A stretch of DNA of 48,271 bases, from contig JOAZ01000036.1 of the NCBI GenBank assembly GCA_000720535.1, positions 1 to 48,271 on the forward strand, in the 5' to 3' direction. Source of the stretch: Streptomyces halstedii. Lineage in GTDB: Bacteria > Actinomycetota > Actinomycetes > Streptomycetales > Streptomycetaceae. The position numbers and the translations under genes were made by a program. The notes beneath the pieces are model-generated. The model did no database searches, was not told where the DNA came from, and saw only the letters and a program-made list of their open reading frames with translations. This document shows positions 894 to 48,271 of the stretch, piece by piece; the first letter of the stretch is position 1, and each line of letters begins with the position of its first letter.

Positions 894-3848
894 ATGACCA
901 CGAACGCACTCCCGATGCCCGTTGCCGAGGCACTGGCGAATGGCGCGCCCCGGAACCTGGGAGCGCTCGCCACCACCGCCACCCGTCGAGGTTGGGGCGC
1001 CATGGTCGAGCGGGACCAGGAGCGCGACGCGTGGACGCTGATCCTCGCCACCCCGTCCGACCGTCGGGCACTCCGGTACACGTGGCGCGCGGGCAAGTGG
1101 TCGGCCTCGAACGCGCACGGCTACCGCGAGACGCTCGCGTTCCACCGGTCCGAGGCCGCGGGCACCCCGGACGCCGAGGCCGCGCCGGTCAAGGTTCCGG
1201 CCGGTGACACCGAGGCCGCTACGGTCGCCGAGGCCGAGGCCGGTGTCATGGCTGCGGGTGCTGCCCTCGATGCAGTCAAGGCCGGTCGTAAGGCCGAGGA
1301 CGCACTCGCCGAGGCACGGAAGCACAAGGATGCGGCCGAGGGATTCCGGCACTCGGCCGAGGTGGCGCAGGAAGCGGCCGAGGCCGCGCGCACGTGGGCC
1401 GAGGCCGAGGCCGAGGCGGACCAGGCCGAGGCGGACGCGAAGGGAGCGGCCGAGGCGGTCGCCGAGTGCAAGCGCGCTTTCCAGCGGGCACAGCGTGCGG
1501 TCACTGAGTGCCGGAAGAGTGCCGAGGCCGCTACCGGCGCCCTGTACGAAACCGAGGCGGACCGCGCTTACGAGCTCGCGAAGGATGCGCGCGAGACTGC
1601 GCGGGAAACGCTCGGCACTGCCGAGGAGGCGGCCGAGGCTGCGAAGGAGGCGGCCGAGACTGCGCGCGCCACGGCTGACGACGAGTGCATGAAGTGCGGC
1701 GAGTGGCTGTGTGCCTGCCGAGAGATCATGTGCGCGATGCTCGCGCGGTGCGGCTCCGGTGTGGCGCGCACGGTCGACGCCGAGGCGGTCCGGATTGGCG
1801 AACTGATCATGTCGGACGACGAGGAGTTCCGCGCGGCCGGTCAAATGATGCTCGGTGGCGATTGGGCCGAGGCCGAGGAGACGCTCGCGCGTGCCGAGGA
1901 GGGACCGGCCGAGGCCGAGGCACGGCGCGCGGCAGTTCGCACGGCCGAGGCCGAGGCCGAGGCGGCGGCGGCCGAGCGTCCGGCGCCGGACGCCGAGCCG
2001 ACTTGCGAGGGTCGCACCGCGCGTCAGTGGGCCGATGTGGCAGACGCTCACGCGCAGCGCGCGGCCGAGGCGTACGAGCTCACGGAAACGGCCGTGCGGT
2101 ACCGCAGCAACATCTACGACGCGCGGCCCGTTGACCGGCTGGACGAGGCCGAGGGCAAGCGTGTGCGGGAAGCGTTCGCCCGGATTGACCGCCGCTCGCG
2201 GACCGCGTACGACTGTGAGCTTTCCGCGCGGCGTGACTGGTGGGACGGCGCAGAGATCACGGACCCTGCCCGTGCGCGTGACTGCGCCGAGCGTGCGCGG
2301 GTGCTGGCCGACGCGTGCGAGGCGGACGCGCGCATGGTTGCCGAGGCTTTCGCGTGGGCCGAGGCCGAGGCGGCGGCGGCGGCCGAGTTGCAGCGCGCGG
2401 AATGGTCGCTCGCGGACGCCGAGGAGCGCTACGAGGCTGCGCGCCGTCCGAACGCGTGGATCGGGGCGCAGGGTGTTGACCGGCGCATCGGAGAGACGAA
2501 CGCGCTTCGTCTCGTGTGGATCGCGCGGCAGGCTCTTGCGGCGGTCAACGGCGCGCCGTTCGTCGCGTACCCGACCCTGACCGACCGAGGGACCGTCAAG
2601 GGTTGGAACGTCGGTCACTGCACCGTGAGTCGGTACGCGGGTACGGCTGTGCGCATCGTCGACACGTCCACGGACCAGTACCGGGCCGAGGCAATCGCCG
2701 AGGACAAGAACCGTGAGCACGCCGCGCGGGTGCTGTGTGAGCGCATGGCCGGTGAACTGGTCATCATGCGGGCCCTGATGGACGACGCACGGCACGAGAA
2801 CACGAAGGTTCCGGGCGGTCGATACCGGCAGGCACGCGCGGCACTGGAGGCGGCCGAGGAGCTGCACGACCGTGCCGCGCGGGAGCGCGGGACCGGCGCG
2901 GCCGATCGCATCGCCCCCGTGGCTGACAAGGTGAGCGCGCTCGGTGCCACGGTGGCCGAGTACGCGCGGGACCGCGCGGTATGGGCGCAGCGTCAGGAGG
3001 CGGCCGAGGCCGCGCGGGTGGAGTCCGCTCCGGTGCCGGCCGAAACTGCGGTCGAGGAGGCGCCCCGGTATCAGTTCGGCCGCCGGGACGCCGAGGGACG
3101 CTATCCGGTGTCGGTCGACGGCGCGCCGGTCGGGCACGTCTACCGGACGCGCCGGACGTGGTGGGCCCGCGGCCTCGACGAGCGGCAGGCGACCGACCAC
3201 ACGAGCCGCGCGGCGGCGGCGGTCCGACTCGTTGGGTTGGTCGACGTCCGGGCCGCAGCCGAGGCGGACCGCACGCGCAGGATGCGGGCCCGCACGGTGG
3301 CGCCCGTCGGGTGGCGCTTCACCACGTGGGACGCCGTCGAGTCGGGGGACGTTGTCCGCACTCCGCGGCGGTGCGTGCCGGTATCCGCGGACGGCGGTCC
3401 CCTGTCCCCCGAAACGTGGGGCGCCCCGGTGACCTTGACCGGTGTCGAGCGTCTCGAAAACGGGTCGGTCGTGGCGCGCGGACAGGAGGGGGACGCGCCC
3501 GGATGGCTCGGCATGGGTGTTCTGTTGTCCACCCCCCGCTACGCCGAGGTTGGCCTCTTGGTGCCGGACGTCGAGCGTCCGGCCGAGGCGGCGGCCGAGG
3601 GGTGCCCGGCGGCGGCCGAGCGTCCGGCGGCGGCCGAGGCGGCGGTCGGTCGGCCCCTGTCGCGTCGGGCGCAGGCGGGGGGATCTCGGGGTGTTCGCGC
3701 AGGTCACAGCACGCGACAGGGCGCCGCGCGACAGGCCACGCGACAGGGCGCGCGACAGGCGTCCGGGGAGAATGGGAGGCGTCGGGAGCGGGGGCCGCCC
3801 CCTCCCCCGGCCCTGGGGGGCGGGTGCCGGCGCTTTCCTGAAACTTGA
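894..3848 (+). CDS. Giant Ala/Glu-rich coiled-coil protein, 984 aa
   Basis: I do not recognise a characterised family. The start ATG follows GGAAGGA with good spacing. Residues 1-90 are globular, with several Trp. From about residue 100 to 700 the protein is dominated by AEAEAE/AAEAA runs and charged residues and should form long helices or coiled coil, with a Cys-rich insert near 264-275 (CMKCGEWLCAC). Residues ~720-760 (YPVSVDGAPVGHVYRTRRTWWARG) resemble a small beta domain. The last ~60 residues are low complexity (TRQGAARQATRQGARQ) and overlap the GCGACAGG octamer array. It is the first gene inside the left telomere and has its own CTTGTAG promoter. A structural or DNA-end-associated role is only a guess. 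Confidence 0.8.
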   Translation: MTTNALPMPVAEALANGAPRNLGALATTATRRGWGAMVERDQERDAWTLILATPSDRRALRYTWRAGKWSASNAHGYRETLAFHRSEAAGTPDAEAAPVKVPAGDTEAATVAEAEAGVMAAGAALDAVKAGRKAEDALAEARKHKDAAEGFRHSAEVAQEAAEAARTWAEAEAEADQAEADAKGAAEAVAECKRAFQRAQRAVTECRKSAEAATGALYETEADRAYELAKDARETARETLGTAEEAAEAAKEAAETARATADDECMKCGEWLCACREIMCAMLARCGSGVARTVDAEAVRIGELIMSDDEEFRAAGQMMLGGDWAEAEETLARAEEGPAEAEARRAAVRTAEAEAEAAAAERPAPDAEPTCEGRTARQWADVADAHAQRAAEAYELTETAVRYRSNIYDARPVDRLDEAEGKRVREAFARIDRRSRTAYDCELSARRDWWDGAEITDPARARDCAERARVLADACEADARMVAEAFAWAEAEAAAAAELQRAEWSLADAEERYEAARRPNAWIGAQGVDRRIGETNALRLVWIARQALAAVNGAPFVAYPTLTDRGTVKGWNVGHCTVSRYAGTAVRIVDTSTDQYRAEAIAEDKNREHAARVLCERMAGELVIMRALMDDARHENTKVPGGRYRQARAALEAAEELHDRAARERGTGAADRIAPVADKVSALGATVAEYARDRAVWAQRQEAAEAARVESAPVPAETAVEEAPRYQFGRRDAEGRYPVSVDGAPVGHVYRTRRTWWARGLDERQATDHTSRAAAAVRLVGLVDVRAAAEADRTRRMRARTVAPVGWRFTTWDAVESGDVVRTPRRCVPVSADGGPLSPETWGAPVTLTGVERLENGSVVARGQEGDAPGWLGMGVLLSTPRYAEVGLLVPDVERPAEAAAEGCPAAAERPAAAEAAVGRPLSRRAQAGGSRGVRAGHSTRQGAARQATRQGARQASGENGRRRERGPPPPPALGGGCRRFPET
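3713..3759 (+). repeat. GCGACAGG octamer array, locus 1
   Basis: GCGACAGG occurs at 3713, 3728, 3740 and 3752 (spacings 15, 12, 12), preceded by CAGGTCACAG at 3700-3709. The same layout recurs at 34648 and, partly, at 10036. It falls in the 3' end of the coiled-coil gene. Confidence 0.75.
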
Positions 3849-3917: not shown

Positions 3918-4011
3918 ACGCGCCAAGTGCGCGACGCCGTCGAGGGCCTCGCCCGGGGCGGCGTTCCCCGTTCGTGGGCGCCCTGTCGGTGGGGTGTGCC
4001 ACGGTGCCGAC

Positions 4012-5100
4012 ATGAACCGCGCAGACCTCACCGCGGATGACCTCCCGATCCGCGTCCCGCTGATCCAGGGCGAGACCCTCGCCTCGTTCCTGATCCGCAC
4101 CTCGACCGCCAACGGCCTACCGGTCGAGACCCTCCTCGGGGCACTCGTCGAGCGTGCCCCCGAGCTCCCCGACGATGGCCTCATGCCGCAGCGCGAGGAG
4201 CTCCGCCTCCCCGCCGAGGGCCTCGCGCAGCTCGCCGCCCTGGTGGGCCGAGAGCCCGAGCAACTCGCACGGGCGTTGCCCGGCGTACGGCCCGGCGGCC
4301 TCGTTGACGCACCGAGCGTCGAGCCGTGGCCGAGGGACTTCGGCGCCCCTCCCCTGCCTGCCTGCCCGCTCTGCATGGAGCCCGGGGCATGGCTCGCCGC
4401 CGAGGGCCACCGGTGGCGCCCCTGCGGCTGCGGCCGTCGGTGGATGGCCGGGGATGACGGCGGGTACCTCGTCGACACCGGCCCCGTCCCGGACCTCGGT
4501 CGGGCCCTGGCCCGACACCGCGCGATGGTGCACCGCTTGGGCCCCGCCGCCGATGCGCTCGTGACGGACGCTCATCAGGTCACCCTTTGGTGGTGGGCGT
4601 CCGGACTCGTCGCCGAGGCATGGCGGGAGCGCGAGGACTCCCTCGACATGGCGCGGCACCGCCGCCGGGCGGCGCCCGTCGCTGTCTACCCCGAGGCCGT
4701 CGCCCTGGCCGAGCTCATGTGGAAGTGGGAGGAGCGGCGCAGGCGTCCGGGTGCCTCGCCCGAGCGGTGGCTCGACTCCGTCGCGCAGCTCGCCCCCGCC
4801 GGCACTCTCACCCGCCGGGAACGTGCCCCGCTGACCTACTGGCTAGAGCAGCACCGGCCCGAACCGCCGGGGAAGCCCTCGGGGCGCGGCGTCGCCGAAC
4901 GGCGCTGGAACCGCCTCCCCGCGCTGCACCACCGACCCCGCCCGGAGGAACACGGACCGCTGCGGGCACCCTCCTGCCTGATGTGGGTCTACGGCCTCCC
5001 GCTCACCTCGACCACGGGCGTATGCCCGCGCTGCAATGGGCGCGCGCCGAGCTGCCGATGGGTGCCCTACTCGGGGTGCACCGGCCTACCCCGGAAGTAG
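4012..5100 (+). CDS. TniQ-family protein
   Basis: Residues ~7-45 carry the TniQ-type opening (LPIRVPLIQGETLASFLIR then NGL), a family whose transposon members help choose integration targets in Tn7- and Tn5053-like elements. A zinc-binding segment follows near residue 115 (CPLC...CGCG), and a second CPRC...C pair lies near the C-terminus. I take ATG 4012 rather than the ATG 18 bases upstream, although neither has a strong ribosome binding site. No TniA/TniB or TnsA/B/C genes are present, so this TniQ is orphan. Two direct repeats resembling transposon end sites lie just upstream. It may be a domesticated remnant or a DNA-binding regulator. Confidence 0.78.
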   Translation: MNRADLTADDLPIRVPLIQGETLASFLIRTSTANGLPVETLLGALVERAPELPDDGLMPQREELRLPAEGLAQLAALVGREPEQLARALPGVRPGGLVDAPSVEPWPRDFGAPPLPACPLCMEPGAWLAAEGHRWRPCGCGRRWMAGDDGGYLVDTGPVPDLGRALARHRAMVHRLGPAADALVTDAHQVTLWWWASGLVAEAWREREDSLDMARHRRRAAPVAVYPEAVALAELMWKWEERRRRPGASPERWLDSVAQLAPAGTLTRRERAPLTYWLEQHRPEPPGKPSGRGVAERRWNRLPALHHRPRPEEHGPLRAPSCLMWVYGLPLTSTTGVCPRCNGRAPSCRWVPYSGCTGLPRK

Positions 5101-6654: not shown

Positions 6655-6700
6655 GTATGTCCCCAGCTCACAGAACATGCGCACTCGTCATAACTCCTGT
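6655..6700 (+). promoter_or_regulatory. CCCCAG...GTCATAAC element, copy 1
   Basis: CCCCAGCTCACAGA, then ACATG, then CGTCATAACTCCTG, with exactly 34 bases from the first C of CCCCAG to the end of CATAAC, as in copies at 29425 and 37182. It probably binds a plasmid-encoded regulator. Confidence 0.7.
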
Positions 6701-6707
6701 TGGGAAG

Positions 6708-6847
6708 GGGGTGCATCGTTTGGCGGTTTCGGTTCCGAGGGGGTGCACCACTTGGCGGTTTCGGGGGTGACCTGCGGTTTCTCGGCGTCCCGGCAGGTTG
6801 GCGCGCGGCCTATCCGCACCCGGTGGCGGTTTCGGTGGCGGTTTCGG
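6708..6847 (+). repeat. Iteron cluster B (four plus-strand copies)
   Basis: Complete copies of GTGCAYC...TGGCGGTTTCGG lie at about 6710-6732 and 6742-6764. Partial copies lie at 6816-6835 and 6834-6847. Unlike cluster A they share one orientation. The cluster is 550 bases from the parB-like gene. Confidence 0.8.
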
Positions 6848-7395: not shown

Positions 7396-8625
7396 TCAGT
7401 CCCGCCAGATGCCGGGCGGGGTGTCCTCGGCCGGTAGGTGGTTGTCGCAGTAGAACGACGTCCCGCGCTTCTCGTCGTCAACCTTCCAGATCACGAGCTC
7501 GTCGCACGGCGGTGCGCTCGCACTCTCGGCCGGGGCCGTGCAGCGAGGCGCCCACCTCTTCGTGGCCGGGTGCCCCTTGAGACGCCGCTCGGCCGTCCGG
7601 ACAGACTTGGAGCGGGGCGAGGGCCGCCATTCGAACCGGTCCACGCCCCGGCTTATGTGTTCCGCGTGCTGCGCCTCGATCCGCTCCGAAAGGAGCTGGA
7701 GCGACGGCCCGCCGTTGCTCACGGCGAGCTCGACGGCGACGGCGAGCACGGCCGAGGAGTCGAGCGGCACCCGGTGCCCGAGTGAGAGGTATCCGGCCCA
7801 CTCTTCGAGCGTCGCCGCCACCGAGGCCGGGACGAGTGCCGAGACGCGGACGGGCGGCGGGTTGCTCGACTCGGAACCCTCGCCGCTCTGCTCCTGGTCC
7901 TCGTCGGCGCCCTCGGTCTTCTCTCCATTTGGAGAGGAATCCGCGGATGCCGGCGCCTTGGTCATGACGCGGCGTGCGGCCTCGCGCACAACGGCGACGG
8001 CCTCCTCGGCGTTCTCGGGGAGCTCGGCCGGGAGCTCCTTCCGGATCTCGACGAGCACGGCCCCGGTGACCTTCCGGCCGCCCTCCCCGGATGCTTTGTC
8101 CGCGCTGCGGTAGAGCTCGATCGCGGGACGCGTCCCGATCTCCTTCTCGATCTTCCGCAGGGGCCGGACGTGACCCTCGGGCGGTGTGCTCGACGTCGCG
8201 GCGGCCACCGCCAGGGCGAGGGGCGCGCCGTCCATCCATCGCCGGGCGTGCGCGGGCGACTTCCCGGTTTCAGCCCGTGCGTACTCGTCGAACGTCATGC
8301 CCTGGTCCCGGTGAAACTTGCCCTTGGCCGCCACCGTCAGGGCCTTGCCGATCACCCAGATTGCAGCGTCACCGGCCGCGAGGGCGGCGTGAATGACCCT
8401 CTCGGTTACGGCCCGCTGCCGGGCCTCGGTCTCGTCGAGCGGGGAACGGTCGTCCTCGGAGACCTCCCGGACGTCGTCGAGGTCGGGGAGCTGGTCGGCG
8501 AGCTCTGCCACGCCGGACACGGCCGACGTCAGGTCGGGCAGATGCGCGGCGGTGTTCTTGACTGCCCGGTTCCCCTTGCGGGCCCGGTTGAGGAGCTCGG
8601 CGCGGTTCGTCGTCTGCGCCGTCAC
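7396..8625 (-). CDS. ParB-like partition partner protein
   Basis: The gene overlaps parA by four bases (ATGA), the usual arrangement for a partition partner. The 409-residue product lacks a recognisable ParB/Srx motif. It has a helical N-terminal half with a possible HTH (about residues 110-140, MTFDEYARAETGKSPAHARR), an acidic Ser/Glu-rich linker near 240-270, and a C-terminal half ending in a Cys/His-containing segment. Function is inferred from position. A CTCTCC palindrome lies inside the gene and another just beyond it, consistent with a nearby centromere. Confidence 0.7.
   Translation of the reverse strand: MTAQTTNRAELLNRARKGNRAVKNTAAHLPDLTSAVSGVAELADQLPDLDDVREVSEDDRSPLDETEARQRAVTERVIHAALAAGDAAIWVIGKALTVAAKGKFHRDQGMTFDEYARAETGKSPAHARRWMDGAPLALAVAAATSSTPPEGHVRPLRKIEKEIGTRPAIELYRSADKASGEGGRKVTGAVLVEIRKELPAELPENAEEAVAVVREAARRVMTKAPASADSSPNGEKTEGADEDQEQSGEGSESSNPPPVRVSALVPASVAATLEEWAGYLSLGHRVPLDSSAVLAVAVELAVSNGGPSLQLLSERIEAQHAEHISRGVDRFEWRPSPRSKSVRTAERRLKGHPATKRWAPRCTAPAESASAPPCDELVIWKVDDEKRGTSFYCDNHLPAEDTPPGIWRD
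7921..7936. repeat. CTCTCC...GGAGAG palindrome, copy 2
   Basis: CTCTCCATTTGGAGAG lies inside the parB-like gene. On the minus strand it is followed by AAGAC, similar to the AAACG following the other copies. Confidence 0.6.
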
Positions 8626-9305
8626 GCGGCTGCCTCCTTGGCGAGCTCGACGGCGAGGAGGTCCATCGGTGAACCGGCGACGAGCCGGGGTTCGAGGCCG
8701 TACGACTGCCCGTAGCCGTCCTGCGCGTCCACGCGTGGAATGCGGGTCTTGAGCACAGTGAAACCGCCGCCGGTCAGGTCCCGGTACGTGTCCTCAGCGG
8801 CCTTGGCCGAGGCGTTCGTCAGCGTCAGGCAGATGACGAGGCGGGGGAAGTGCGCGCCGACCTCTTCAAGGTGGTCGATAGCGCCGAGGACGGAACCGGC
8901 GCGGTTCATCTCCATGCGGGTCGGGGGGAGCGTCAACACGGCGAGGTCGACGCCGCTCAACACGGCGAAGTGCATGTTCCCGGCCCTGCGGTTCCACGCT
9001 CCGGTGTCGACGGCCAGGAGGCCGCCCTCCGGGGTGTACTTCACGAGCTGGTCGCGGACCTTGGAGCGGTTCGGGGCCGGGTACACCGGTCCGCCGAGGT
9101 CGGCCTCGTCCGACCACTCCAGGAGGCTGCCCTTTTCCTCGTCGCCGGGCTCGTCGGCGTCCATGGCCGAGGCCGGGATACCGGCCGCGTTCCAGTGCTT
9201 GAGCATGTGGGCGATGATCGTGCTTTTGCCGGTGCCGCCCTTGCCGACGAACGCGATCCTGCGCCCCTGTTCGGGGATCACCACGGGGGGTGTGAGAGTC
9301 GTCAT
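8622..9305 (-). CDS. parA: ParA-family partition ATPase
   Basis: The 227-residue product has the deviant Walker A motif GKGGTGKST at residues 21-29, including the signature first lysine. A Walker A'/B-type LLAVDTGAW lies near 95-103, and LAVLTLPPTRMEMNRAGSVL sits where ParA proteins carry their third motif. It is short for a ParA and lacks an N-terminal HTH, like type Ib plasmid ParAs. It should hydrolyse ATP and move plasmid copies through a partner bound to a centromere. The ATG is at 9305; no strong ribosome binding site is visible, so translation may begin near the 5' end of the message. Confidence 0.88.
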   Translation of the reverse strand: MTTLTPPVVIPEQGRRIAFVGKGGTGKSTIIAHMLKHWNAAGIPASAMDADEPGDEEKGSLLEWSDEADLGGPVYPAPNRSKVRDQLVKYTPEGGLLAVDTGAWNRRAGNMHFAVLSGVDLAVLTLPPTRMEMNRAGSVLGAIDHLEEVGAHFPRLVICLTLTNASAKAAEDTYRDLTGGGFTVLKTRIPRVDAQDGYGQSYGLEPRLVAGSPMDLLAVELAKEAAA

Positions 9306-9394: not shown

Positions 9395-9904
9395 TCAACC
9401 GCCGTACGTGTCACGGCACAACGCCGCGAGGCTCGGGTCGGTGACACCCTGCGCGGCCCGGCATACGTCCCTCATGCCGTACTCGGCCGAGCTCGGCGCC
9501 CGGTCCGGGGTGCGCGGCGCGGGGTGCGCAGGCCGCCGGACTGGCGCCGGGCGTTCCCGGCGAGGAGGTGCCGGCGGGCGGAACGCCCGGGGGACGGCGG
9601 GCCGGTGCTCGATCCGGGCCGAGGGCGGACCGGCGGGCGCACGGCGCTGCGGCCGGGGAGGGGCGGCGGACGCCGAGGAGGGCGCCGGGCCGGTCGTCAC
9701 GAGCGCCTCGACGGCCGGGGCCTGCCTGACCTCGACCGCGGTGAATGCGGGCGCCGGACCGGGCGCGGCGGGCCGGTAGCGCGGGGCGGGCGCCTTGCCG
9801 TCGGCCGGGGAGACGGACACGCACCCGGCAGTGGCCAGGAGGGCGAGGGCTGCGGCGGCGAGGCCGATCACGGGGCGGTGCACCCGCCCACCGTGCCCGA
9901 TCAC
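9395..9904 (-). CDS. Possible in-frame lipoprotein gene (alternative start)
   Basis: GTG 9904 follows a GAGG element by five bases and is in frame with the long gene upstream. Translation from it would give 169 residues with a short positive N-terminus, a hydrophobic core, a TAGC lipobox and a Pro-rich secreted body with two Cys near the end. If used, this is an exported lipoprotein and the upstream protein would carry it as a read-through tail. Evidence is the signal-peptide layout only. Confidence 0.4.
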   Translation of the reverse strand: MIGHGGRVHRPVIGLAAAALALLATAGCVSVSPADGKAPAPRYRPAAPGPAPAFTAVEVRQAPAVEALVTTGPAPSSASAAPPRPQRRAPAGPPSARIEHRPAVPRAFRPPAPPRRERPAPVRRPAHPAPRTPDRAPSSAEYGMRDVCRAAQGVTDPSLAALCRDTYGG

Positions 9905-11728
9905 CGGGGCCTCGTCGCCCCGCCGTGCTGCGTTCCACCAGTACGGGTGACAGGGCACCCCGCCGCCCTGTACGCCCCCCTGTCGCGCCCGCCGCAGGCT
10001 CGGGGAGACCGGGAAGTCTCCGCAGGTCACAGCACGCGACAGGGGGCCGCGCGACACGGTACGCGACACCGGCCACCCGGCCGCCCGGAAGTGCCGGCCG
10101 CGCCTCCTCGCAGGGGCCGGGGCAAGCTCGGCCGGACGCGCCAGGACCGGAGCGGCGAGGGCCTCGACCGACACCTCGGCCGGGGTGAGCTCGTCGGCCT
10201 GGTCCTCGACGAGCTGCACGACGGCGGCCTCGGCCGGAAGGCGGGCGGGATCGTAGATCGAGGCCAGACGCGCGAGCTGTTCGCCGATCCCCCGCGTACC
10301 GGCGAGCGGTGCGTCAAGGTCGGGGAACGCCTCGCGGGCGAGGTCGACGTACGCCCGGCCGCCGAGCACCGTCACGGCCGCCCCCGAGATCCCGAGCTCG
10401 TGCGCCTGCCTGCGGAGTGTCTCGCCGTCCACCGTGCCCGGGTCACCGGCCCGCAGCTCGTACGTGATGATCCACTCAGTGAGCTCGACGAGGCCGTGTT
10501 TCGCGGACAGGATCAGCACCCGCCCCGACCGGCCGCCGCGAGTGAGGACGTCGGCGGCACGCCGCGCGGCGCGGTGATAGCTCCCGACGTACATCTCACC
10601 GGCCGGGAGGACAGGAATCGGCTCGCCCTTGCGCGGGCCGTCGGTCCGCATCGCCTTGCGACCACCGCACGGAACGATCACGACGCGCTCACGCTCCTCG
10701 CGTGTCGCCCGCCGCCGCCCCGCCTCGGTGATCCGGACCGTGCCCGGGTTCGGCTTGAGCGAGTCGGCGATCCGGACGGGGCGGCCGTGGTTGTAGCGCG
10801 GTGCCCACTCGACGTATCCGGCGGCCTCAAGAGCCGCGAGCGTCCGCAGGTTGCAGCCGTTCGGGAAGTGCCCGGCGGGGTGCGCGGCGGCGGTGTGCAG
10901 CCAACGGCGCTGTACCCGGGTGAGGGGCGCCTCGACGAGCTCCTCGTCCTCCTGGTCCTCGGTGACGTCCTCGGCCGCGGCCTCCTCGACCGGCTCCTCG
11001 TCGGCGGGGAGCTCGTCGCCGTCGAGGGCGGCGAACAGGCGGGCGCGGCGCCGGGCCTGCGCGTCGTACAGCTCGCCGAGCTCGCGCTCGAACGCCACGG
11101 CGGCCGGGTCGGGCGTGCGGTCGGCGCGGGCGAGGATCTCCTCGGCCTCGGCCTGGTCGTGCATCGCGCGCAGCTCGACCGGACCCTCGGCCTTGACGAC
11201 GTCGTACGCCACGGCGCGCGCCTGGTCCCACATCGGGCGGGACGGGTCCAGCGGGCGGGGCGGCAGGCCCGTAATGCCGAGGTAGTCGGCCACGGCCGCG
11301 AACGCCTCGGCGCGGAACCGTGAGGCGTAGGAGCGGCGCCCGCCGGCATCGACGTATTCGAGCGCGTCCTCGGCGGCCACGCTGCGGGCCCACCGGCCGT
11401 AGACGCGGGCGGCCTTGGTGGCGAGGGCCTCGACGCGGGCGAGGTAGCGCGGGACGGCGGACAGGAAACGGGCGAGGCGCTCGGGATCGCCGGACAGTTC
11501 GAGGCACAGCTCGTCGGGCGTCGGCGCCGGGGCGTCAGGGCTCGCCGGGTTGTAGTGCAGCGTCCGCCAGGGGTGCCGGGCCGTCACGTTGTAGATGACC
11601 GCGAGGCGGCGGGCGGCGGCGGCGCGCGGCTTGCCCTTCCCGGCCGCGCGGGGAAAGTCGAGGCGAGCCTCTCCTCGGCCGTGGTGGTCGACGGCGATCC
11701 CGGTCCGGGTGGCGTACTCGGTAGGCAT
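9395..11728 (-). CDS. DUF6884-type protein with lipoprotein-like tail
   Basis: I start at ATG 11728 behind GAGGAG; an in-frame start at 11785 would overlap the CTTGTAG promoter. The ~777-residue frame begins with a helical region of about 330 residues, then a DUF6884-like domain (VVIVPCGGRKAM ... VGSYHRAARRAADVL ... LILSAKHGLVEL). A basic, poorly conserved stretch follows that coincides with octamer array locus 2. The last ~165 residues look like a separate lipoprotein: hydrophobic VIGLAAAALALLATAGC then a Pro/Ala-rich segment and a two-Cys end (DVCRAAQGVTDPSLAALC). No stop divides the parts, so it is either a fusion or two in-frame genes. Confidence 0.68.
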   Translation of the reverse strand: MPTEYATRTGIAVDHHGRGEARLDFPRAAGKGKPRAAAARRLAVIYNVTARHPWRTLHYNPASPDAPAPTPDELCLELSGDPERLARFLSAVPRYLARVEALATKAARVYGRWARSVAAEDALEYVDAGGRRSYASRFRAEAFAAVADYLGITGLPPRPLDPSRPMWDQARAVAYDVVKAEGPVELRAMHDQAEAEEILARADRTPDPAAVAFERELGELYDAQARRRARLFAALDGDELPADEEPVEEAAAEDVTEDQEDEELVEAPLTRVQRRWLHTAAAHPAGHFPNGCNLRTLAALEAAGYVEWAPRYNHGRPVRIADSLKPNPGTVRITEAGRRRATREERERVVIVPCGGRKAMRTDGPRKGEPIPVLPAGEMYVGSYHRAARRAADVLTRGGRSGRVLILSAKHGLVELTEWIITYELRAGDPGTVDGETLRRQAHELGISGAAVTVLGGRAYVDLAREAFPDLDAPLAGTRGIGEQLARLASIYDPARLPAEAAVVQLVEDQADELTPAEVSVEALAAPVLARPAELAPAPARRRGRHFRAAGWPVSRTVSRGPLSRAVTCGDFPVSPSLRRARQGGVQGGGVPCHPYWWNAARRGDEAPVIGHGGRVHRPVIGLAAAALALLATAGCVSVSPADGKAPAPRYRPAAPGPAPAFTAVEVRQAPAVEALVTTGPAPSSASAAPPRPQRRAPAGPPSARIEHRPAVPRAFRPPAPPRRERPAPVRRPAHPAPRTPDRAPSSAEYGMRDVCRAAQGVTDPSLAALCRDTYGG
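10036..10070 (+). repeat. GCGACAGG octamer array, locus 2 (degenerate)
   Basis: GCGACAGG at 10036, GCGACACG at 10051 and GCGACACC at 10063 keep the 15/12 spacing, with CAGGTCACAG at 10023-10032. It is antisense to the DUF6884 gene. Confidence 0.65.
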
Positions 11729-11781
11729 TCGGTGCGGCTCCTCGTCGGTGTGCGGTCCGATCACTCTCCCATACTCGAAAG

Positions 11782-11812
11782 TCAACTACAAGTCATGCTG
11801 CAAGTTGTGCTT
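11782..11812 (-). promoter_or_regulatory. CTTGTAG-family promoter/operator, site D
   Basis: On the minus strand, ACTTGCAGCATG is followed by ACTTGTAGTTG with the 12-base period. It lies about 55 bases upstream of the start at 11728. A clear -10 hexamer is not obvious. Confidence 0.6.
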
Positions 11813-11882: not shown

Positions 11883-13604
11883 CTATTCGCCGTCGCGGAC
11901 GGCGTCGCGGCCCTCTTTGATGAACCGGCCGGGGTTCGCCCGCTTCGCGGTCATGTCCCGGTACCACTGCATGGGCTGCACGCCCTCTTGCTTCACGAAC
12001 CCGGGATTCGGGCCGAGGCGGAACGCGCCCGGGAGCGGACTCCCGTCCTCCTTGCGTGCCATCACGGCAAGGGCCGTCGGCTGCGCCGAGGGGTAGATCA
12101 CGCAGTCCGCCAGGACGGCGAGCGGGACCAGGCCGAGGGCGTTCCAGACCTTGACCATCTTCCGGTGCTGTCCGACGCGGGAGGCGCTGATCACGGCCGC
12201 GCGGATATCGGGCCGCCAGGTCGGGCGCTTGAGCGCCGCCCACGGGGCGTTGCGCCCCTCGCGCTTGGTGCTGCCCTGCGGCCTCTCGCGCATCTTGCCG
12301 ATGCCGCCCTTTGCCGTGGCCTTGATCGCAGACAGGAGCGCGACGGCCTCGGGATCACGGGCCTTGACCGTGGCCATAGCGTCGATGAACGCCGCCTCGT
12401 CCATGTCCTCGGTGATGCCGAGATCGGCGAGCGTGTCCATGTACGCCGCGCGCAGCCGGTTGTGCCACAGGTCGAGGTATCCGCCGGCATCCGGGCGCAG
12501 CCACGCCGCGAGCGGCCGGACCTCGATCCCGAGCTCTTGCGCGTACGCCAGGGTCGGCGTCGCGTACCAGGCCGGGCCGGACGGCGGCCGTCCGTCCGGG
12601 GTGAACGGCGAGGGGAAGTTTTCGGGGAGCTCGCGCCACTGCTTGGTGCGGAGATCCTTTGTGTGCAGCTTGGCACCGGACAGGTCGACCAGCCACGCGC
12701 CGGGGAGCTTCTTATCGAACACCGGGCCGTCGGTGTAGACCGCCTCGCCGAGTCCGACCGTGAGCCGGTTTGCTGCGGCGAGGAACGCCGTGTTCACGTC
12801 GAGGCCGACCACGTACGGGAGCGCGGCCTCCTCCTCGGTGGCCTCGCGGTACCAGTTGAGGGCCTCCTCGACGAGGACGTGAGCGGGGCTCTTGGACTCC
12901 TCGCGGGTGCGCTCGGCCGCGATCGGGTGCTCGTCGGGCGCCTCGGGCGGCGCGGGGTCCACAGCCTTGTGCAGCGAGCCGGGGACCGGGACGCGGCGCA
13001 TACGGCCGGTGCCTCGGTCGAACTTGGCCACCGTCGGCGGCCGTACGGCCGTCATCAGGGACAGGCTGCATCCGGCGGTCGAGCCGGTCGGGCTGATGAC
13101 CCGCTCGGCGTAGAGGCCGAGGGTGTACGCCAGGGCGCCGGGATCGGCGGCGACGAAATCCATGTCGCCCCATCGCATGTGGTCGCTGAACGCGCCCCAC
13201 GGGACCACGGCGACGTGCACCTCGGTCCGGTCGCGGAACAGGAAGGACCAGCCGCCGAGGCCCGCGCGGCTGAGCGTCCACCCGGCCTCGGTCAGAGCCT
13301 TGACGGCCGGATCGTCGTCGGGCACCCGCAGGCGCTTGCGGTCGTCGAGCCGGGGCGGGAGGCCGAGAAACTCGACGGCGGACTCGGTCAGGACCAGGAG
13401 GGGCCCGGTGTCCTCGCCGTACTGCGACAGCTTGGCCGCACCGAGGCCGTACCCGAGGGCCCAATCGGCGGCCGTCGCAAGGTCGGTGACCTCGCCCGGC
13501 AGGTCGATGCGCTGCACGTTCGGGAGGTCAGCGACGAGGGCGCCGTCGGCGGCGGAGAGGACGGCCAGGGGAGCGGTGTAGGTCTGCTCGGTCATGGTCG
13601 TCAT
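11883..13604 (-). CDS. tap: Telomere-associated protein Tap, short form
   Basis: The 573-residue product matches my recall of the Streptomyces Tap core along nearly its whole length: SLMTALRPPT, KAVDPAPPEAP, VGLDVNTAFLAAANRLTVGL, FTPDGRPPSGPAWYATPT, LSAIKATAKGGIGK, RPTWRPDIRAAVISA. Tap binds telomere overhangs and recruits the terminal protein. Chromosomal Tap is longer (over 700 residues) and opens with an XRE-type HTH. Here translation starts directly at the core and the HTH is missing. The gene overlaps tpg by four bases (ATGA) and follows it, whereas in the S. lividans archetype tap precedes tpg. Confidence 0.92.
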   Translation of the reverse strand: MTTMTEQTYTAPLAVLSAADGALVADLPNVQRIDLPGEVTDLATAADWALGYGLGAAKLSQYGEDTGPLLVLTESAVEFLGLPPRLDDRKRLRVPDDDPAVKALTEAGWTLSRAGLGGWSFLFRDRTEVHVAVVPWGAFSDHMRWGDMDFVAADPGALAYTLGLYAERVISPTGSTAGCSLSLMTAVRPPTVAKFDRGTGRMRRVPVPGSLHKAVDPAPPEAPDEHPIAAERTREESKSPAHVLVEEALNWYREATEEEAALPYVVGLDVNTAFLAAANRLTVGLGEAVYTDGPVFDKKLPGAWLVDLSGAKLHTKDLRTKQWRELPENFPSPFTPDGRPPSGPAWYATPTLAYAQELGIEVRPLAAWLRPDAGGYLDLWHNRLRAAYMDTLADLGITEDMDEAAFIDAMATVKARDPEAVALLSAIKATAKGGIGKMRERPQGSTKREGRNAPWAALKRPTWRPDIRAAVISASRVGQHRKMVKVWNALGLVPLAVLADCVIYPSAQPTALAVMARKEDGSPLPGAFRLGPNPGFVKQEGVQPMQWYRDMTAKRANPGRFIKEGRDAVRDGE

Positions 13605-14155
13605 CCCCTGAAATCAAACTCGACGTAGTCGATATCGGTGAGCTCGATCCCGAGCTCGTCCTCGTTGGCGGCCGTGCCGGGGGTGTAGAAGTACGGCGAC
13701 ACGGCCTTAGCCGCGAGCTCGTTGAGCTTGGCCTCGTCCCCGTTGCGCATGGCCTCGAACACCTCGGGAATCAGCTCGGGCGGAACCTCCTCGGTGAGGC
13801 GCCGCATCCGCGGGTCATCCGTCGTGCCGGCGTCCGACGTGAACCCCACCGCGGCCCGGGTCTCGATGACGAGGCCGCGCTCCTGGGCTTCCTTCTGTGC
13901 CTTGGCGGTGACGCGCGGCTGGTGGTCTTTGCGCACCTCGCTTTCGAGGCGGCCGAGGGTCTCGGGCTTGCTGTTCTCGATCTTCCGCTCGCCCTTGACG
14001 AGGCGCTGAACCTGACGTCGAGAGACGCCGAGACGCTCGGCGACCTTGGCCGTGTTGCCCTTCTCCCGGCGCAACAGGGCGTTGAACCGGCCCCGAGGAG
14101 TCTTGGGAATGTCGCGGGTCTGGAACTTGGCGCGCAGCGCGTTAAAAATCTTCAC
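13601..14155 (-). CDS. tpg: Telomere terminal protein Tpg
   Basis: At 184 residues it has the usual Tpg length. Family landmarks are present: an N-terminal HTH (VAERLGVSRRQVQRLVKGER, about residues 38-57), LESEVRKDHQPRV, RAAVGFTSDAGTTDDPRMR, and the C-terminal ELTDIDYVEFDF. Tpg is covalently attached to the 5' ends and primes filling-in of the terminal gap. The start is GTG 14155 behind GAGGAGAGGG. Its stop overlaps the tap start, so the two should be made together. Tpg with an intact HTH next to a Tap without one is unusual. Confidence 0.95.
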   Translation of the reverse strand: MKIFNALRAKFQTRDIPKTPRGRFNALLRREKGNTAKVAERLGVSRRQVQRLVKGERKIENSKPETLGRLESEVRKDHQPRVTAKAQKEAQERGLVIETRAAVGFTSDAGTTDDPRMRRLTEEVPPELIPEVFEAMRNGDEAKLNELAAKAVSPYFYTPGTAANEDELGIELTDIDYVEFDFRG

Positions 14156-25160: not shown

Positions 25161-25197
25161 GTTCTACTTGTAGTTGTGCTGCAACCTGTGTCATCGT
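25161..25197 (+). promoter_or_regulatory. CTTGTAG-family promoter/operator, site F
   Basis: TACTTGTAGTTGTGCTGCAA is followed by CATCGT 18 bases after TTGTAG. An ACTGACAG half-repeat lies 12 bases upstream. The site lies about 41 bases before ATG 25238. Confidence 0.72.
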
Positions 25198-25237
25198 GAG
25201 AACGCACCGACCACCGAACCCAACAGGGGGAAGACAG

Positions 25238-29424: not shown

Positions 29425-29470
29425 GTATGCCCCCAGCTCACAAACAATGATTGTTCGTCATAACCCCTGT
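29425..29470 (+). promoter_or_regulatory. CCCCAG...GTCATAAC element, copy 2
   Basis: CCCCAGCTCACAAA, AATG, then CGTCATAACCCCTG with the same 34-base span as the other two copies. Confidence 0.7.
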
Positions 29471-29507: not shown

Positions 29508-29550
29508 ACTTGCAGCTCAACTTGTAGTTGAGTTGCAAGTGTGTAAGGGT
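29508..29550 (+). promoter_or_regulatory. CTTGTAG-family promoter/operator, site G
   Basis: ACTTGCAG (29508) and ACTTGTAG (29520) repeat with a 12-base period, then TTGAGTTGCAAG. TTGTAG and AAGGGT are 17 bases apart. ATG 29599 follows about 49 bases later. Confidence 0.72.
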
Positions 29551-29598
29551 GTGAGTGCGGCAGGAAGCCGCAAGAACACCCAAGGAAGGGACCGAAGA

Positions 29599-32611: not shown

Positions 32612-32669
32612 CGTTGTGCCAGAGAACAGGGCGGCGCCCTGACACACCCGTGAGCGAGGATCAGTACGG

Positions 32670-32692
32670 CACGTCTGTACGACCGACGTGCG
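32670..32692. promoter_or_regulatory. Inverted repeat before the second FtsK-like gene
   Basis: GCACGTC and GACGTGC flank nine bases, 21 bases upstream of the start at 32713. Candidate operator. Confidence 0.5.
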
Positions 32693-32712
32693 AGACAGAG
32701 AGAGGGGGAGGA

Positions 32713-35007
32713 GTGCAAACCGCTCTACCGGAGCTCCCGGACGCCCGCGAGCTCCTCGACCACATCCCCGGCGGCGCGCTCGGCCTCGGCAGCGGCGGAC
32801 TGTTCGCCGTAATGGTCGTCGTCGCCGTGCTCGCCAACCAAGGGACACCGGCCGAACGCGCCGAGTTCAACCGGTCCATTGAACGGTTCTTCGGCAACGC
32901 CGCCGCAGGTATAGGCCGGTACGTGTCCGGCCGCGAGCTCAACGGAACCCCGCGCAGCGAGGCCACATGGTGGCGTGCCGGCGCCCCGCTCCCCGACGAC
33001 GAGAAGACCGAGACGCCCGTCGCCGAGCTCGGCGCCGCGTTGCGCAGCTCCTCGCCGACCGTGTCCCTCGGCAAGACCAGCCCGGCCCGGCGGACGGCCC
33101 GCGCGCTCACGGCTCCCGTCCGGGTGCTGTGGGGCGCCCTGCGGGGCGTGGGGCGAGTCCTCGCCGCATGGCACCGATGGCCGCGCGCTGCGCGCTCAGC
33201 GGCCCGCCTGGCGCCATTCCTGACGCTATACGGATGGTGGCGAGCGCCCCTCGTCACCGAGTGGGCCCTAATCGCCGTCGCGGGGGCGGCGATTGTCGCC
33301 GCTATCACCAGTCCGGCCGGACTCGGATGGTGGCGCGTAACGCCTGTGTGGACGGATCGACAAATCTACGGCCCCGGCGTGTGGGTGGCGGTCCGTCAGA
33401 TCCTCCGCATGGAGGAGACCGAACCCCGGGAACGGTGGCTCTCGGTGCCTGACGACATGACCGCCGACGGCGCCCGAATTGTGCTGCGCCTGCCCGCAAA
33501 ATGGATGGGAGGCCCCGAGGCCGTCACCGCCATTGAGCGCGTGATCGAGGAGCGCGTCCCCGGGGAATGGGTCTCCCGGTGGGAACGCACGACGAAAGAG
33601 CATTTCGCCGAGTGGACCCCCAAGCCGAAGCCCACACCGAAACCCGTACTCCCCGACTATGTCCCGTGGAAGTCGACCGGAGACCCGTTCCGGGTATTCG
33701 TCGGTCTGGCGATCGAAGGGGATTCGATCGTTGACGCCGTAATCCAGACGCAGACCGCCACCCCGCATTGGGGTGTGGCCGGTGACACGGGTTCCGGAAA
33801 ATCGACCGTCCTCTACATCCCTGTTGTGCATGGTCGGCAGAATGGCGAGCTTATCGACATTCTCGATACCAAGCGGAACAGTCTCAAAGAAGCCGAAGGG
33901 TTTTCAGGCGTACGCGTCCACAAAACGACGCGAGAGTGCATCTCGGCTTTCGCTGAATTCCTCGCCTCAATGATGGCGGCCGAGGCGGCGGCGGAAAAGG
34001 GAGCCGATCCGGCATTGCGGAGTCAGCTCGTATCCCGGACGCTAGTCGTCGACGAGTTGCCGACGCTCATCAAGCTCGCATATAGCTGGTGGCGATACGG
34101 AATAAAGGGAAAGGGGACGCCGCCCTTCCTTGACTGGCTCGCGATTATCCTCCTGCAAGGACGCTCCTCGAATCATCGCGTTGTCGTCGGCACGCAGCAA
34201 TTCGCGAACGCTTTCTTTGGTGGCACCATGGAGCGCGCGCAGATCGGAACGCGTATCGCGGTCGGTCAACAGGACCGCGTTTCCTGGAGCGTGGCATTCG
34301 GGCAGAGCACGCCCGTTCTTGGATTCGACTCGAAGATCAAGGGGCGCGGCGCCTACACGGACAAGCAAAAGGACCCCGACGCCGATTACCTGTATGTCCG
34401 AGAGATTCAGCCGAGTTACATCACGCCAGAAGTCGGGGCCCTCCTCGCGCAATGCCCGCCCGCGCCGGAATGGTTCGACCGTGGGGAAATGGCGCCGTGG
34501 ATCACGCCCGAGATCCTCGTCGAGGTGAACGCGACCGCGGCCACCGCGAAGTTCCTCCCCGGGGGCGAACACGGCCCCGTCGCGTTCGCCGGTGTCGCCT
34601 CCTCGGCACGGAAGGGGATCACGGGTAGTTCCCCCAGCTCACAGGGCACGACAGGGGCCCTCGCGACAGCAGGCGCGACAGGGGGCGCGACAGGTGCCGG
34701 CACCGGCCCGGCTCCCGAGCTCATTGAGGACCAGGAGGAGAAGCTCCCCGACACGTACAGCCTCGCCGAAGCCTACGAAAAGGGATTTCTCCCGTGGAAG
34801 GCGTCCACGGCCAGGACGTATTTCAAGCGAGGCGCCACGCGAGGGATTACACCCCCCGAAGGAATCACAGACGGGCAGACCTCCTACTACTCCGAGGAGG
34901 AGCTCGCGAAGTGGCTCGGCGAATGGAAAAAGTGGCAGGAAGAGAACAGCAAGAGTCCCCGAAAGGGAGCCGCAGAGGCGCAGCCGGAAGGGGCCAAGAA
35001 TGGGTGA
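32713..35007 (+). CDS. FtsK/VirD4-like ATPase, likely coupling protein
   Basis: I start at GTG 32713 after AGGGGGAGGA; longer forms lack a site. The ~764-residue product has membrane segments near 23-40 and 183-203, Walker A GDTGSGKST at 357-365 and Walker B TLVVDEL near 443. After a Gly/Ala/Thr linker, a C-terminal winged helix lies at about 680-740 (SLAEAYEKGFLPWKASTART). Placement ahead of the T4SS-like operon suggests it feeds DNA to that channel. The linker coincides exactly with octamer array locus 3. A-T content in the middle third is higher than in the neighbours. Confidence 0.85.
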   Translation: MQTALPELPDARELLDHIPGGALGLGSGGLFAVMVVVAVLANQGTPAERAEFNRSIERFFGNAAAGIGRYVSGRELNGTPRSEATWWRAGAPLPDDEKTETPVAELGAALRSSSPTVSLGKTSPARRTARALTAPVRVLWGALRGVGRVLAAWHRWPRAARSAARLAPFLTLYGWWRAPLVTEWALIAVAGAAIVAAITSPAGLGWWRVTPVWTDRQIYGPGVWVAVRQILRMEETEPRERWLSVPDDMTADGARIVLRLPAKWMGGPEAVTAIERVIEERVPGEWVSRWERTTKEHFAEWTPKPKPTPKPVLPDYVPWKSTGDPFRVFVGLAIEGDSIVDAVIQTQTATPHWGVAGDTGSGKSTVLYIPVVHGRQNGELIDILDTKRNSLKEAEGFSGVRVHKTTRECISAFAEFLASMMAAEAAAEKGADPALRSQLVSRTLVVDELPTLIKLAYSWWRYGIKGKGTPPFLDWLAIILLQGRSSNHRVVVGTQQFANAFFGGTMERAQIGTRIAVGQQDRVSWSVAFGQSTPVLGFDSKIKGRGAYTDKQKDPDADYLYVREIQPSYITPEVGALLAQCPPAPEWFDRGEMAPWITPEILVEVNATAATAKFLPGGEHGPVAFAGVASSARKGITGSSPSSQGTTGALATAGATGGATGAGTGPAPELIEDQEEKLPDTYSLAEAYEKGFLPWKASTARTYFKRGATRGITPPEGITDGQTSYYSEEELAKWLGEWKKWQEENSKSPRKGAAEAQPEGAKNG
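34648..34694 (+). repeat. GCGACAGG octamer array, locus 3
   Basis: Octamers start at 34648 (ACGACAGG), 34663 (GCGACAGC), 34675 and 34687 (GCGACAGG), with spacings 15, 12, 12 as at locus 1. CAGCTCACAG at 34635-34644 precedes it at the same offset. The reading frame differs from that at locus 1. Confidence 0.75.
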
Positions 35008-35856: not shown

Positions 35857-36052
35857 CCGTCATGCCCCCCCGATCGTTCTCAACATGGGGCCGCACTCTA
35901 GCGGCCCGTGATCACTCCCGCTGGCCACATGTCACAGGACTGCCACAGCCGGGGCATGTGCCATGCGAATTTCTTTGACGCTTTGATCACCCTCGGCATA
36001 GGGTCGATCACCAATGCGCTCAATGCGCCCTGACTTGGGGGAGGTTGCGGGG

Positions 36053-37174
36053 ATGCCGTCGCTTGGGACCATGCTCCGGAAGGCCGCAGGGCTACCGGAG
36101 CCCACGCCGGACCAGAGCAAGAAAGCGCCGGCACCCGTGCCCTCGCAGACACAGCAAGCCCGGCCCTCGAACCCGTGGGAGAGTGCCGGCGCCGAGCTCG
36201 CCGCGCAGCACAAGAGCACCACCTCGGCCCCGGCCGCCGAGCCCGCCGGGAGGGCCGGGCCCCGCACGCCGTGGGTTCCTCAAGAGGAGCGCAGCGGGAC
36301 CGTGTTCGCCCGCCGTCTCGGCCGCGGCCTCGTGTGGGGAGTGCTGATCCTCGCCGCCGTGACTGGCGTCCGCGCGTGGTTCATCCCGCCCAAGGTCGAC
36401 GTTCCGCCCGCGCCCAAGGTGACGGCCGGGCCGACCTACCCGAACGCCGAGGCGCAGGCCGTCGCCGCCCGATTCAGCCGGGCCTACCTCGCGTGGGACC
36501 AGGACAAGCCCGAGGACCGCGCCGCGCTCCTGGCCGCCGTGATGCCCGAGAACTCGGATACCTCGATCGGATGGGACGGGCGCGGCCGTCAGGACGTGCT
36601 AGCCGTCCAGCCGGGCGCCGTCACGACTGGCAGTCAGCACCAGGCCCGCGTACGGGTGGACGTCCTGATCAAGACCGAGGCGCCCGCGCCGACCGGCAAG
36701 GACAAAAAGAAGACGGCGGCGCCCGAGTCGCCCGCCCGATGGGTGGGCCTCGACGTGCCGGTTGTGGAGACGTCCGGGCGGGTCATCGTCACCGGGGAGC
36801 CGGGCCTCGTCGGTATCCCGGCCAAGGGCCCCAAGGCCCCCGACCTCAACACCACCAAGACCGATCAGGAGCTCGCGGCGTCGACCGAGGGCACCGTCGA
36901 ACAGTTCTTCCGCGCCTACGCGGGCGGCGACACAGACGCCGTCACCGCCCCCGGCGCGAGCGTCCCGCCGCTCCCCGAGGGCGTCGAGTACAAGGGCCTC
37001 GTTACGTGGTCCATCGACGAGGGGACCGGCGACGACAGGACCGGTACCGCTCGCGTCTCTTGGACGCTCGGCGAGGGCACGGTCGAGCAGACCTACCGCG
37101 TAGAGCTCACCCGGGTGTCGAGCGCCGACGCCGCGCGGTGGCAAGTCGCCGACGTGCACGGCGGCACTCTCTGA
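36053..37174 (+). CDS. TcpC/VirB8-like conjugation protein
   Basis: ATG 36053 follows GGGGGAGG by eight bases, better than the ATG 39 bases upstream. The 373-residue product has a disordered N-terminus and one membrane segment near 97-115 (LVWGVLILAAVTGVRAWF). Two extracellular NTF2-like domains follow (AVAARFSRAYLAWD near 140; TVEQFFRAYAGGD near 285). That is the layout of Gram-positive TcpC, the scaffold of the conjugation channel. It heads the T4SS-like cluster. Confidence 0.83.
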   Translation: MPSLGTMLRKAAGLPEPTPDQSKKAPAPVPSQTQQARPSNPWESAGAELAAQHKSTTSAPAAEPAGRAGPRTPWVPQEERSGTVFARRLGRGLVWGVLILAAVTGVRAWFIPPKVDVPPAPKVTAGPTYPNAEAQAVAARFSRAYLAWDQDKPEDRAALLAAVMPENSDTSIGWDGRGRQDVLAVQPGAVTTGSQHQARVRVDVLIKTEAPAPTGKDKKKTAAPESPARWVGLDVPVVETSGRVIVTGEPGLVGIPAKGPKAPDLNTTKTDQELAASTEGTVEQFFRAYAGGDTDAVTAPGASVPPLPEGVEYKGLVTWSIDEGTGDDRTGTARVSWTLGEGTVEQTYRVELTRVSSADAARWQVADVHGGTL

Positions 37175-37181
37175 CGGGTGC

Positions 37182-37226
37182 TATGTCCCCAGATCACAAA
37201 ACATGACCACCCGTCATAACTCCTGG
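37182..37226 (+). promoter_or_regulatory. CCCCAG...GTCATAAC element, copy 3
   Basis: CCCCAGATCACAAA, ACATG, then CGTCATAACTCCTG with the 34-base span. It contains ATGAC and GTCAT as an inverted pair. It is 33 bases upstream of the GTG at 37259 and immediately after the TcpC-like stop. Confidence 0.72.
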
Positions 37227-48069: not shown

Positions 48070-48271
48070 GCCTCGCCGCGAAGCGGCGGCGCTTAGCCGC
48101 GAAGCGGCAAAAGCGCAGGTCAGAGGCCGTGAAACGGCCTCTCGGGCGTCTTCCCGCCCTCGTGAAACGAGGGCCGGGCTCCGCGAAGCGGAGCCCGCAG
48201 ACGGCGTGAAACGCCGTCGAGTGATCGGCGAAGCCGATCACCGGTTGTAGCACGCGCAGCGTGCTACAGAC
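48070..48271. repeat. Right telomere palindromes
   Basis: Palindromes at 48075-48087, 48096-48108, 48122-48142, 48156-48174, 48176-48196, 48200-48218, 48222-48240 and 48247-48267 are packed with almost no spacers. On the plus strand, which ends 3' here, loops are GCGAAGC, GTGAAAC or, outermost, GCGCAGC. The last ~50 bases are an inverted copy of the left end with paired changes in the stems. Confidence 0.93.

Follow-up and report, generated by a model that had tools for sequence, protein, structure and literature searches.

A spaced octamer array on a linear Streptomyces plasmid, with one copy inside tcpA, as a probable recognition site for conjugal transfer

Introduction

Linear conjugative plasmids that carry genes of a type IV secretion system (T4SS) and no recognised relaxase raise the question of how such a plasmid chooses its own DNA for transfer. 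We addressed this question in a stretch of 48,271 bp (contig C36, here called the window) from a 7,740,838-base Streptomyces genome; a region identical to it is also present in contigs of S. diastatochromogenes. The window is a linear plasmid, since it has terminal inverted repeats, the tap and tpg genes, and T4SS-type genes. It holds three copies of an element built around an array of octamers, one of them inside the gene for the putative coupling protein TcpA. An earlier note, made from the letters of the window, had suggested that these octamers could be an array read by an FtsK-like conjugation ATPase. Here we describe the complete element and its variation among related plasmids, and propose, with a probability of roughly 0.6, that it is a cis-acting recognition site for conjugal transfer, similar to the clt (cis-acting locus of transfer) and TraB recognition sequences (TRS), and that it is read by the T4SS coupling protein TcpA.

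Results

The element is about 100 bp long and occurs three times in the window, always on the plus strand: site A at 3657-3759, site B at 9980-10070 and site C at 34592-34694. In each copy, 43 bp separate the start of an inverted octamer from the start of a core (CAGSTCACAG), and three or four direct octamers (CGCGACAG) follow, with their starts at intervals of 15, 12 and 12 bp. At site A, the inverted octamer (3657-3664, minus strand, reading CTGTCGCG on the plus strand) is followed by the core CAGGTCACAG (3700-3709, plus strand) and four direct octamers (3713-3759, plus strand) that start at 3713, 3728, 3740 and 3752. Site B has the same inverted octamer (9980-9987, minus strand) and the same core (10023-10032, plus strand), with three direct octamers (10036-10070, plus strand) starting at 10036, 10051 and 10063. 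Site C, within tcpA, has a degenerate inverted octamer (34592-34599, minus strand, GTGTCGCC on the plus strand) that agrees with the local octamer at six of eight bases, the core CAGCTCACAG (34635-34644, plus strand), and four direct octamers (34648-34694, plus strand) starting at 34648, 34663, 34675 and 34687. The octamer positions and spacings that the earlier note gave for sites A and C and for a partial copy at site B were correct, and the prefix CAGNTCACAG, which it had placed 13 bases ahead of the first octamer, is present at all three copies. Its layout of the octamers stands as well, but not every unit reads GCGACAGG, since the units at 34648 and 34663 read ACGACAGG and GCGACAGC and the last two units of site B read GCGACACG and GCGACACC; the note had also seen the array without the inverted copy 43 bp before the core or the constant core itself.

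It is the spaced arrangement of the octamers, not their count, that is beyond chance. The octamer GCGACAGG alone is mildly enriched, with 10 occurrences on the two strands of the window and a mean of 4.28 (maximum 9) in 60 dinucleotide shuffles. The exact prefixed two-octamer pattern had one match (expected 0.00 from 100 shuffles), and a three-repeat array pattern, looser than the prefixed one, had three matches in the whole genome, all on the contig of the window, with none for a reversed-pattern control. A second repeat family, TATGYCCCCAGNTCACA..AACATG..CGTCATAACYCCTG with variants, was observed at 6656-6699, 29426-29469 and 37182-37225, all on the plus strand; it has the same CCCCAGNTCACA core as site C and no octamers, and a weak match to it also occurs in L122 near 8624 (E 0.4). 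The array element and this family perhaps have a core-binding factor in common.

Coordinates of the open reading frames (ORFs) place the copies in different genes and frames, as the earlier note had stated. Site A starts at codon position 3 of ORF 894-3848 and site C at codon position 1 of ORF 32614-35007, while site B is antisense to ORF 9395-11785. Selection acts on the DNA at array C. To quantify this, we compared tcpA of the window with its counterparts in L005, L006 and G402, which had been chosen for their protein and not for the C array. Four-fold degenerate third bases agreed at 66 of 77 comparisons inside the array and at 1106 of 2053 elsewhere, a level reached by one of 679 gene windows; with the window itself removed, agreement was 32/37 inside and 484/978 elsewhere, and none of 668 gene windows was as high. 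The claim in the note that selection acts on the DNA is borne out by this third-base conservation together with the differing frames and strands of the copies.

The sequence of the octamer varies between plasmids while the geometry of the array stays fixed. We examined 16 tcpA genes of the window's clade, comprising the window, 12 plasmid records (including L005 and L006), L109, G402 and G403:C194; the 12 records were taken from 17 with TcpA matches, H56, H63, H66, H68 and H69 being left out, and the search that gave these 17 misses L112 and L113. In 14 of the 16 genes, a 15/12/12 array in the last 620 nt of tcpA scored above all 100 dinucleotide shuffles, L139 only just doing so (34, with a shuffle maximum of 33), and it did not exceed all shuffles in L135 (1/100) and L143 (15/100). 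Absence of the array from plasmids with the same ATPase, an outcome that the earlier note had considered, is therefore not the case in these 14 genes. Inspected by eye, the array falls in the linker that precedes the C-terminal domain of TcpA; at site C, a Thr/Ala/Gly linker is encoded. At least seven kinds of octamer occur among the 16 genes: CGCGACAG/CACGACAG in the window, L005, L006, L109 and G402; CGCAACAG in G403:C194; CGTGGCAG in L134; TGCCACAG in L136; TGTGACAG in L137; GGTAACAG/GGTAACCG in L138, L141 and L142; and CGGGACAG in L140. The octamers are degenerate in L135 and L143 and irregular in L139. Read inverted, the 8-mer at exactly 43 bp ahead of the core is identical to the gene's own octamer in G403:C194, L134, L136, L141 and L142, and agrees with it at seven of eight bases in L109, L137, L138 and L140. 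Among the genes with a changed octamer (n = 10, L139 left out), eight have an inverted 8-mer that matches their own octamer at seven or eight bases, and the control, matching the octamers of the other genes, gave means of 4.4-5.8. Because the octamer changes between plasmids and the inverted copy changes to match it, comparison of the sequences indicates that the reader of the octamers is likely plasmid-encoded.

The element was also found beyond the tcpA genes. The complete linear plasmids NZ_CP109237 (51 kb) and NZ_CP108634 (60 kb) carry it at the same three places as the window: in tcpA, next to the DUF6884 region and the ParA-like gene, and at the 3' end of the large left-end gene, which is followed by a TniQ-domain gene. 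At site B of NZ_CP108634 no gene is listed over the site, and its intergenic placement is provisional because the PLSDB gene tables are incomplete. The draft contig G402:C37 has three copies, and G403:C194 has three copies with changed octamers and CTGTTGC inverted copies at all three sites. A pattern scan of genome contigs returned 45 stretches, 32 of which showed the architecture by eye, all from Streptomyces or Kitasatospora; the other 13 (12 from other taxa, and L027) do not have it and look like chance. L048 has the architecture without the inverted copy, G077 is a real variant of the element, and G323 does not have the architecture. The invariant CGACA and TCACA columns of the alignment A3 are partly set by the search pattern. 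On all 10 contigs with at least two strict matches, the copies share one strand, and spacings of 15/13/12 or 14/13/13 occur in some relatives. The search for the spaced array that the note had proposed thus found it three times in the host genome, each time on this contig, and in relatives of the plasmid. No exact match to the array pattern was present in viral contigs, no description of the element was found in the literature searched, and none among the matches listed in a literature search with the octamer string concerns Streptomyces plasmids. Near the Kitasatospora-type copies there is a conserved segment of about 600 bp, which has the look of a decayed gene's 3' portion and not of a second element.

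The natural candidate for the reader is the protein encoded at 32614-35007 (plus strand), which we take to be TcpA, because the array and the proposed reader share one gene. Its profile matches the solved "DNA translocase coupling protein" 6o1w (E 5.6e-5) and FtsK 2ius (E 9.7e-4), and its relatives are annotated as "type IV secretory system conjugative DNA transfer family protein". In an AlphaFold model, its last 89 residues form a strand-helix-turn-helix-strand-helix arrangement with a wing, with predicted local distance difference test scores, taken by blocks, of 86-92 for residues 11-70 of this stretch, and we propose the C-terminal helix-turn-helix domain (34750-34932, plus strand; second helix at about residues 730-742) as the reading domain. 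Foldseek ranked MerR-type DNA-binding domains highest for this tail, at insignificant values, with a weak match also to TraN of Enterococcus. The second helix reads RTYFKRG in all five genes with CGCGACAG/CACGACAG octamers and differs in the other eleven. In partial Mantel scans of 736 protein windows, this helix ranked 5, 11, 23 and 4 in four subsets (permutation p 0.0002-0.0006), with L139 left out of three of the four runs and read by eye in the remaining one. Of the two FtsK-like proteins that the earlier note had offered as readers, the 32614-35007 protein appears the better candidate; the 21371 protein, which is 46% identical to its two best relatives and does not have the array in its gene, does not.

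Other features of the window are those of a linear plasmid with a transfer apparatus. The left terminal inverted repeat (2-76, no strand assigned) pairs with 48197-48271 over 75 nt at 92% identity. Genes for the telomere-associated protein Tap (11883-13604, minus strand, NF047542) and the terminal protein Tpg (13601-14155, minus strand, NF047541) are present. Downstream of tcpA are genes for a TcpC-type conjugation protein (36014-37174, plus strand, PF12642) and a VirB4-like ATPase of the AAA_10 family (38091-40634, plus strand, PF12846), both over their Pfam cut-offs, and a CHAP match is under its cut-off. No relaxase turned up among the window ORFs scanned with Pfam, and the two closest plasmids are typed as non-mobilizable by PLSDB. 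The ParA-like ATPase near site B (8622-9305, minus strand) matches NF041546 with E 6.7e-10 and 38.8 bits, the curated cut-off being 180. As for ParA genes elsewhere, in L131-L133 different repeats (GCTAGC/GCTGGCAAGC-like, by eye) lie directly before parA and are perhaps the centromere of that ParA family. The left-end coiled-coil gene (894-3848) has matches to two parts of a 2328-residue protein in NZ_CP108634, its first 95 residues and a stretch close to its end, and to two stretches of a DNA cytosine methyltransferase protein in NZ_CP109237, so that much of the gene's middle seems unrelated. Repeats of the GGTGCACC/GGCGGTTTCGG type occur in both orientations near the left end (150-530, 720-745 and 6740-6777) and are possible iterons, and ACTTGTAGTTG repeats at 800-853, 11762-11805, 25163-25216 and 29508-29570 are perhaps an operator family.

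Discussion

An octamer that varies, a geometry that does not, an inverted copy that follows the octamer, and an array inside the coupling-protein gene lend support to the suggestion of the earlier note, that a plasmid-specific array is read by an FtsK-like conjugation ATPase. In the mechanism that we propose, the C-terminal winged helix of TcpA would bind the direct octamers, the inverted copy 43 bp before the core would close or orient the complex, and a shared factor may bind at the constant core. The polar array would load the ring-shaped motor in one direction, and the copy inside tcpA could keep reader and address together when plasmids recombine. Three parts of this mechanism are inferred, namely TcpA as the reader, transfer as the function, and a direction set by polarity.

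Several results weigh against a transfer site read by TcpA, in addition to the placements near parA and near contig ends that are discussed below. The inverted 8-mer matches the gene's own octamer at only six of eight bases in the window, L005, L006, G402 and L135, and at four in L143, and the third-base signal is weak when L005 and L006 alone are compared (13/15 inside, 159/336 elsewhere; 13 of 645 gene windows as high). The strand shared by the copies is partly due to common descent, synteny making the contigs far from independent. No Foldseek match of the TcpA tail reaches E 0.001, and Pfam finds no helix-turn-helix in it. Other segments of TcpA outrank the second helix in every Mantel run, and the ranks of the helix are therefore support and not proof. 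Nine of 23 element-bearing genomes or records do not have TcpA at E <= 1e-8, and none of 11 genomes or records of this type matches the TcpA tail domain at E <= 0.01. The tcpA-like genes of the 15-18-kb pRL2-like plasmids (L106, L112 and L113) hold other repeats, GTGACA-like by eye, in none of the three does a 15/12/12 array exceed all shuffles, and the tails of their proteins are not found by the TcpA tail profile.

The main rival is partition, according to which the octamers form a centromere of the parS or parC kind, a plasmid-encoded partner of ParA binds them, ParA moves the plasmid, and several copies raise the dose. Site B lies about 700 bp from the ParA-like gene, and in NZ_CP108466, NZ_CP108050, L105 and L106 the single element found is less than 100 to about 900 bp upstream of parA; the element is upstream of parA in L128 and L129 as well. 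In the former four, the gene after parA encodes a small protein of ribbon-helix-helix type by eye, but it belongs to no Pfam family and has no credible match among solved structures. This protein occurs in 4 of 18 genomes or records, a fifth match covering only 36 residues (E 8.6e-4), and the genes after parA code for different proteins in different plasmid types, so that a single conserved DNA-binding partner of ParA did not emerge. Six plasmids with a related ParA (of 42 records) were examined by their parA region; the element is present in L128 and L129 and absent from L130-L133. The element stands beside parA at site B and in the pRL2-like plasmids, but not at sites A and C, nor in L134, L136 or NZ_CP108405; NZ_CP108405 has the element at 4.7 kb but ParA/ParB at 92-94 kb, and L134 and L136 yielded no core-anchored array other than the one inside tcpA, where partition predicts no fixed place. 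The parS centromeres of SCP1 and SCP2 are likewise specific sites near or inside par genes, passages of PMC13245405 giving three parS sites per system for SCP1, and passages of PMC12260392 placing the SCP2 site inside parT; they are described there as inverted repeats of 13, 19 and 18 bp (PMC13245405, PMC12260392), whereas the element is a polar array with a core. We regard partition as possible, with the odds well against it.

It is less probable still that the element is a subtelomeric site read by the host, bound by a chromosomal protein at the arms of linear replicons for end replication, end association or end-first transfer, and exploited by plasmids. In L096, L103 and L104, Kitasatospora-type copies are indeed found 1.6-1.8 kb from a contig end, and their flanks are partly conserved; the copy in NZ_CP108405 is 4.7 kb from the end, near a helicase with helicase-associated (HA) domains, and the element is present in genomes in which no TcpA was detected. 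However, the left contig end of L096 is no true telomere, because the same region is internal in L114, and one chromosomal pair of copies lies 974 kb inside its chromosome record, counted from the start. An octamer that changes between plasmids and yet remains self-consistent would also hardly be compatible with a single host protein. It is very improbable that the element serves a Tn7-like transposon as its ends or targets, with TnsB or TniQ binding to it: site A is followed by a TniQ-domain gene (3994-5100), and tnsABC-tniQ clusters lie near the element in Kitasatospora replicons (L096 2386-9202, L110 10554-16615 and L114 18253-24364), but TniQ had no match in 3 of 16 genomes or records, is in several others far from the element or on another contig, and the side of the element on which the tns cluster lies differs between L096 and L108. 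We rejected this reading since the element does not regularly flank tns genes. Spacings of 15, 12 and 12 are multiples of three, as a common peptide repeat would have, and site C encodes its Thr/Ala/Gly linker; such a repeat, which the earlier note had also considered, is excluded because of the third-base conservation and the different frames or strands of A, B and C, and with the 15/13/12 and 14/13/13 spacings of relatives these refute both peptide repeat and chance, to which we assign next to no probability. A structured RNA was rejected as well, RNAalifold giving -3.35 kcal/mol for 37 copies with nine pairs, of which six join the first octamer to the inverted copy, and an Rfam covariance-model search of the element gave no match.

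If the element is a transfer site read by TcpA, it would resemble several known systems without being identical to any of them. FtsK and SpoIIIE are ring translocases with a C-terminal winged helix that follow polar octamers, the FtsK orienting polar sequences (KOPS) and SpoIIIE recognition sequences (SRS); the element differs in being a clustered array, with few copies per replicon and a sequence that varies between plasmids. T4SS plasmids have arrays of plasmid-specific repeats on one side of the origin of transfer (oriT), beside a conserved core, that are bound by a dedicated accessory DNA-binding protein, whereas here the repeats lie inside the coupling-protein gene and no relaxase is among the Pfam-scanned ORFs. 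The closest parallel is the TRS/clt of Streptomyces plasmids such as pSVH1, pIJ101, pJV1 and pWTY27, which passages of PMC3583192 describe as direct repeats, 5-9 bp long, that lie within the gene for the FtsK-like transfer ATPase or next to it. According to the same passages, helix 3 in the C-terminal winged helix-turn-helix of pSVH1 TraB recognises repeated 8-bp motifs, and the clt of pWTY27 consists of 16 bp of traA and 159 bp beside the gene, with four 7-bp repeats (PMC3583192). The element agrees with these sites in having short direct repeats, in several copies, in or near a transfer-ATPase gene, with a repeat that is plasmid-specific. It differs in that its ATPase is by annotation a T4SS coupling protein, whose gene has TcpC- and VirB4-like genes as neighbours, in its fixed 15/12/12 geometry, constant core and inverted copy, in its three dispersed co-oriented copies on a linear plasmid, and in octamers unlike the repeats quoted in those passages of PMC3583192. 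The likeness in working is one on paper, and the coupling protein was placed by the annotation of its relatives and by the matches of its profile to 6o1w and FtsK.

A more far-reaching and more tentative possibility is that of a self-addressed export motor, in which the coupling protein's own gene would hold a polar DNA address read by its C-terminal domain. Octamer and recognition helix would then co-evolve, such that each linear plasmid exports only itself, and the dispersed co-oriented copies could start the transfer of linear DNA in one direction and without a relaxase. Recognition by TcpA becomes testable by specificity swaps, given a site known to the base, natural variants of its octamer and a named candidate reader. 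If true, it would extend octamer recognition of the TraB type to T4SS coupling proteins, and the array pattern may serve as a search rule for transfer sites on the linear replicons of Streptomyces.

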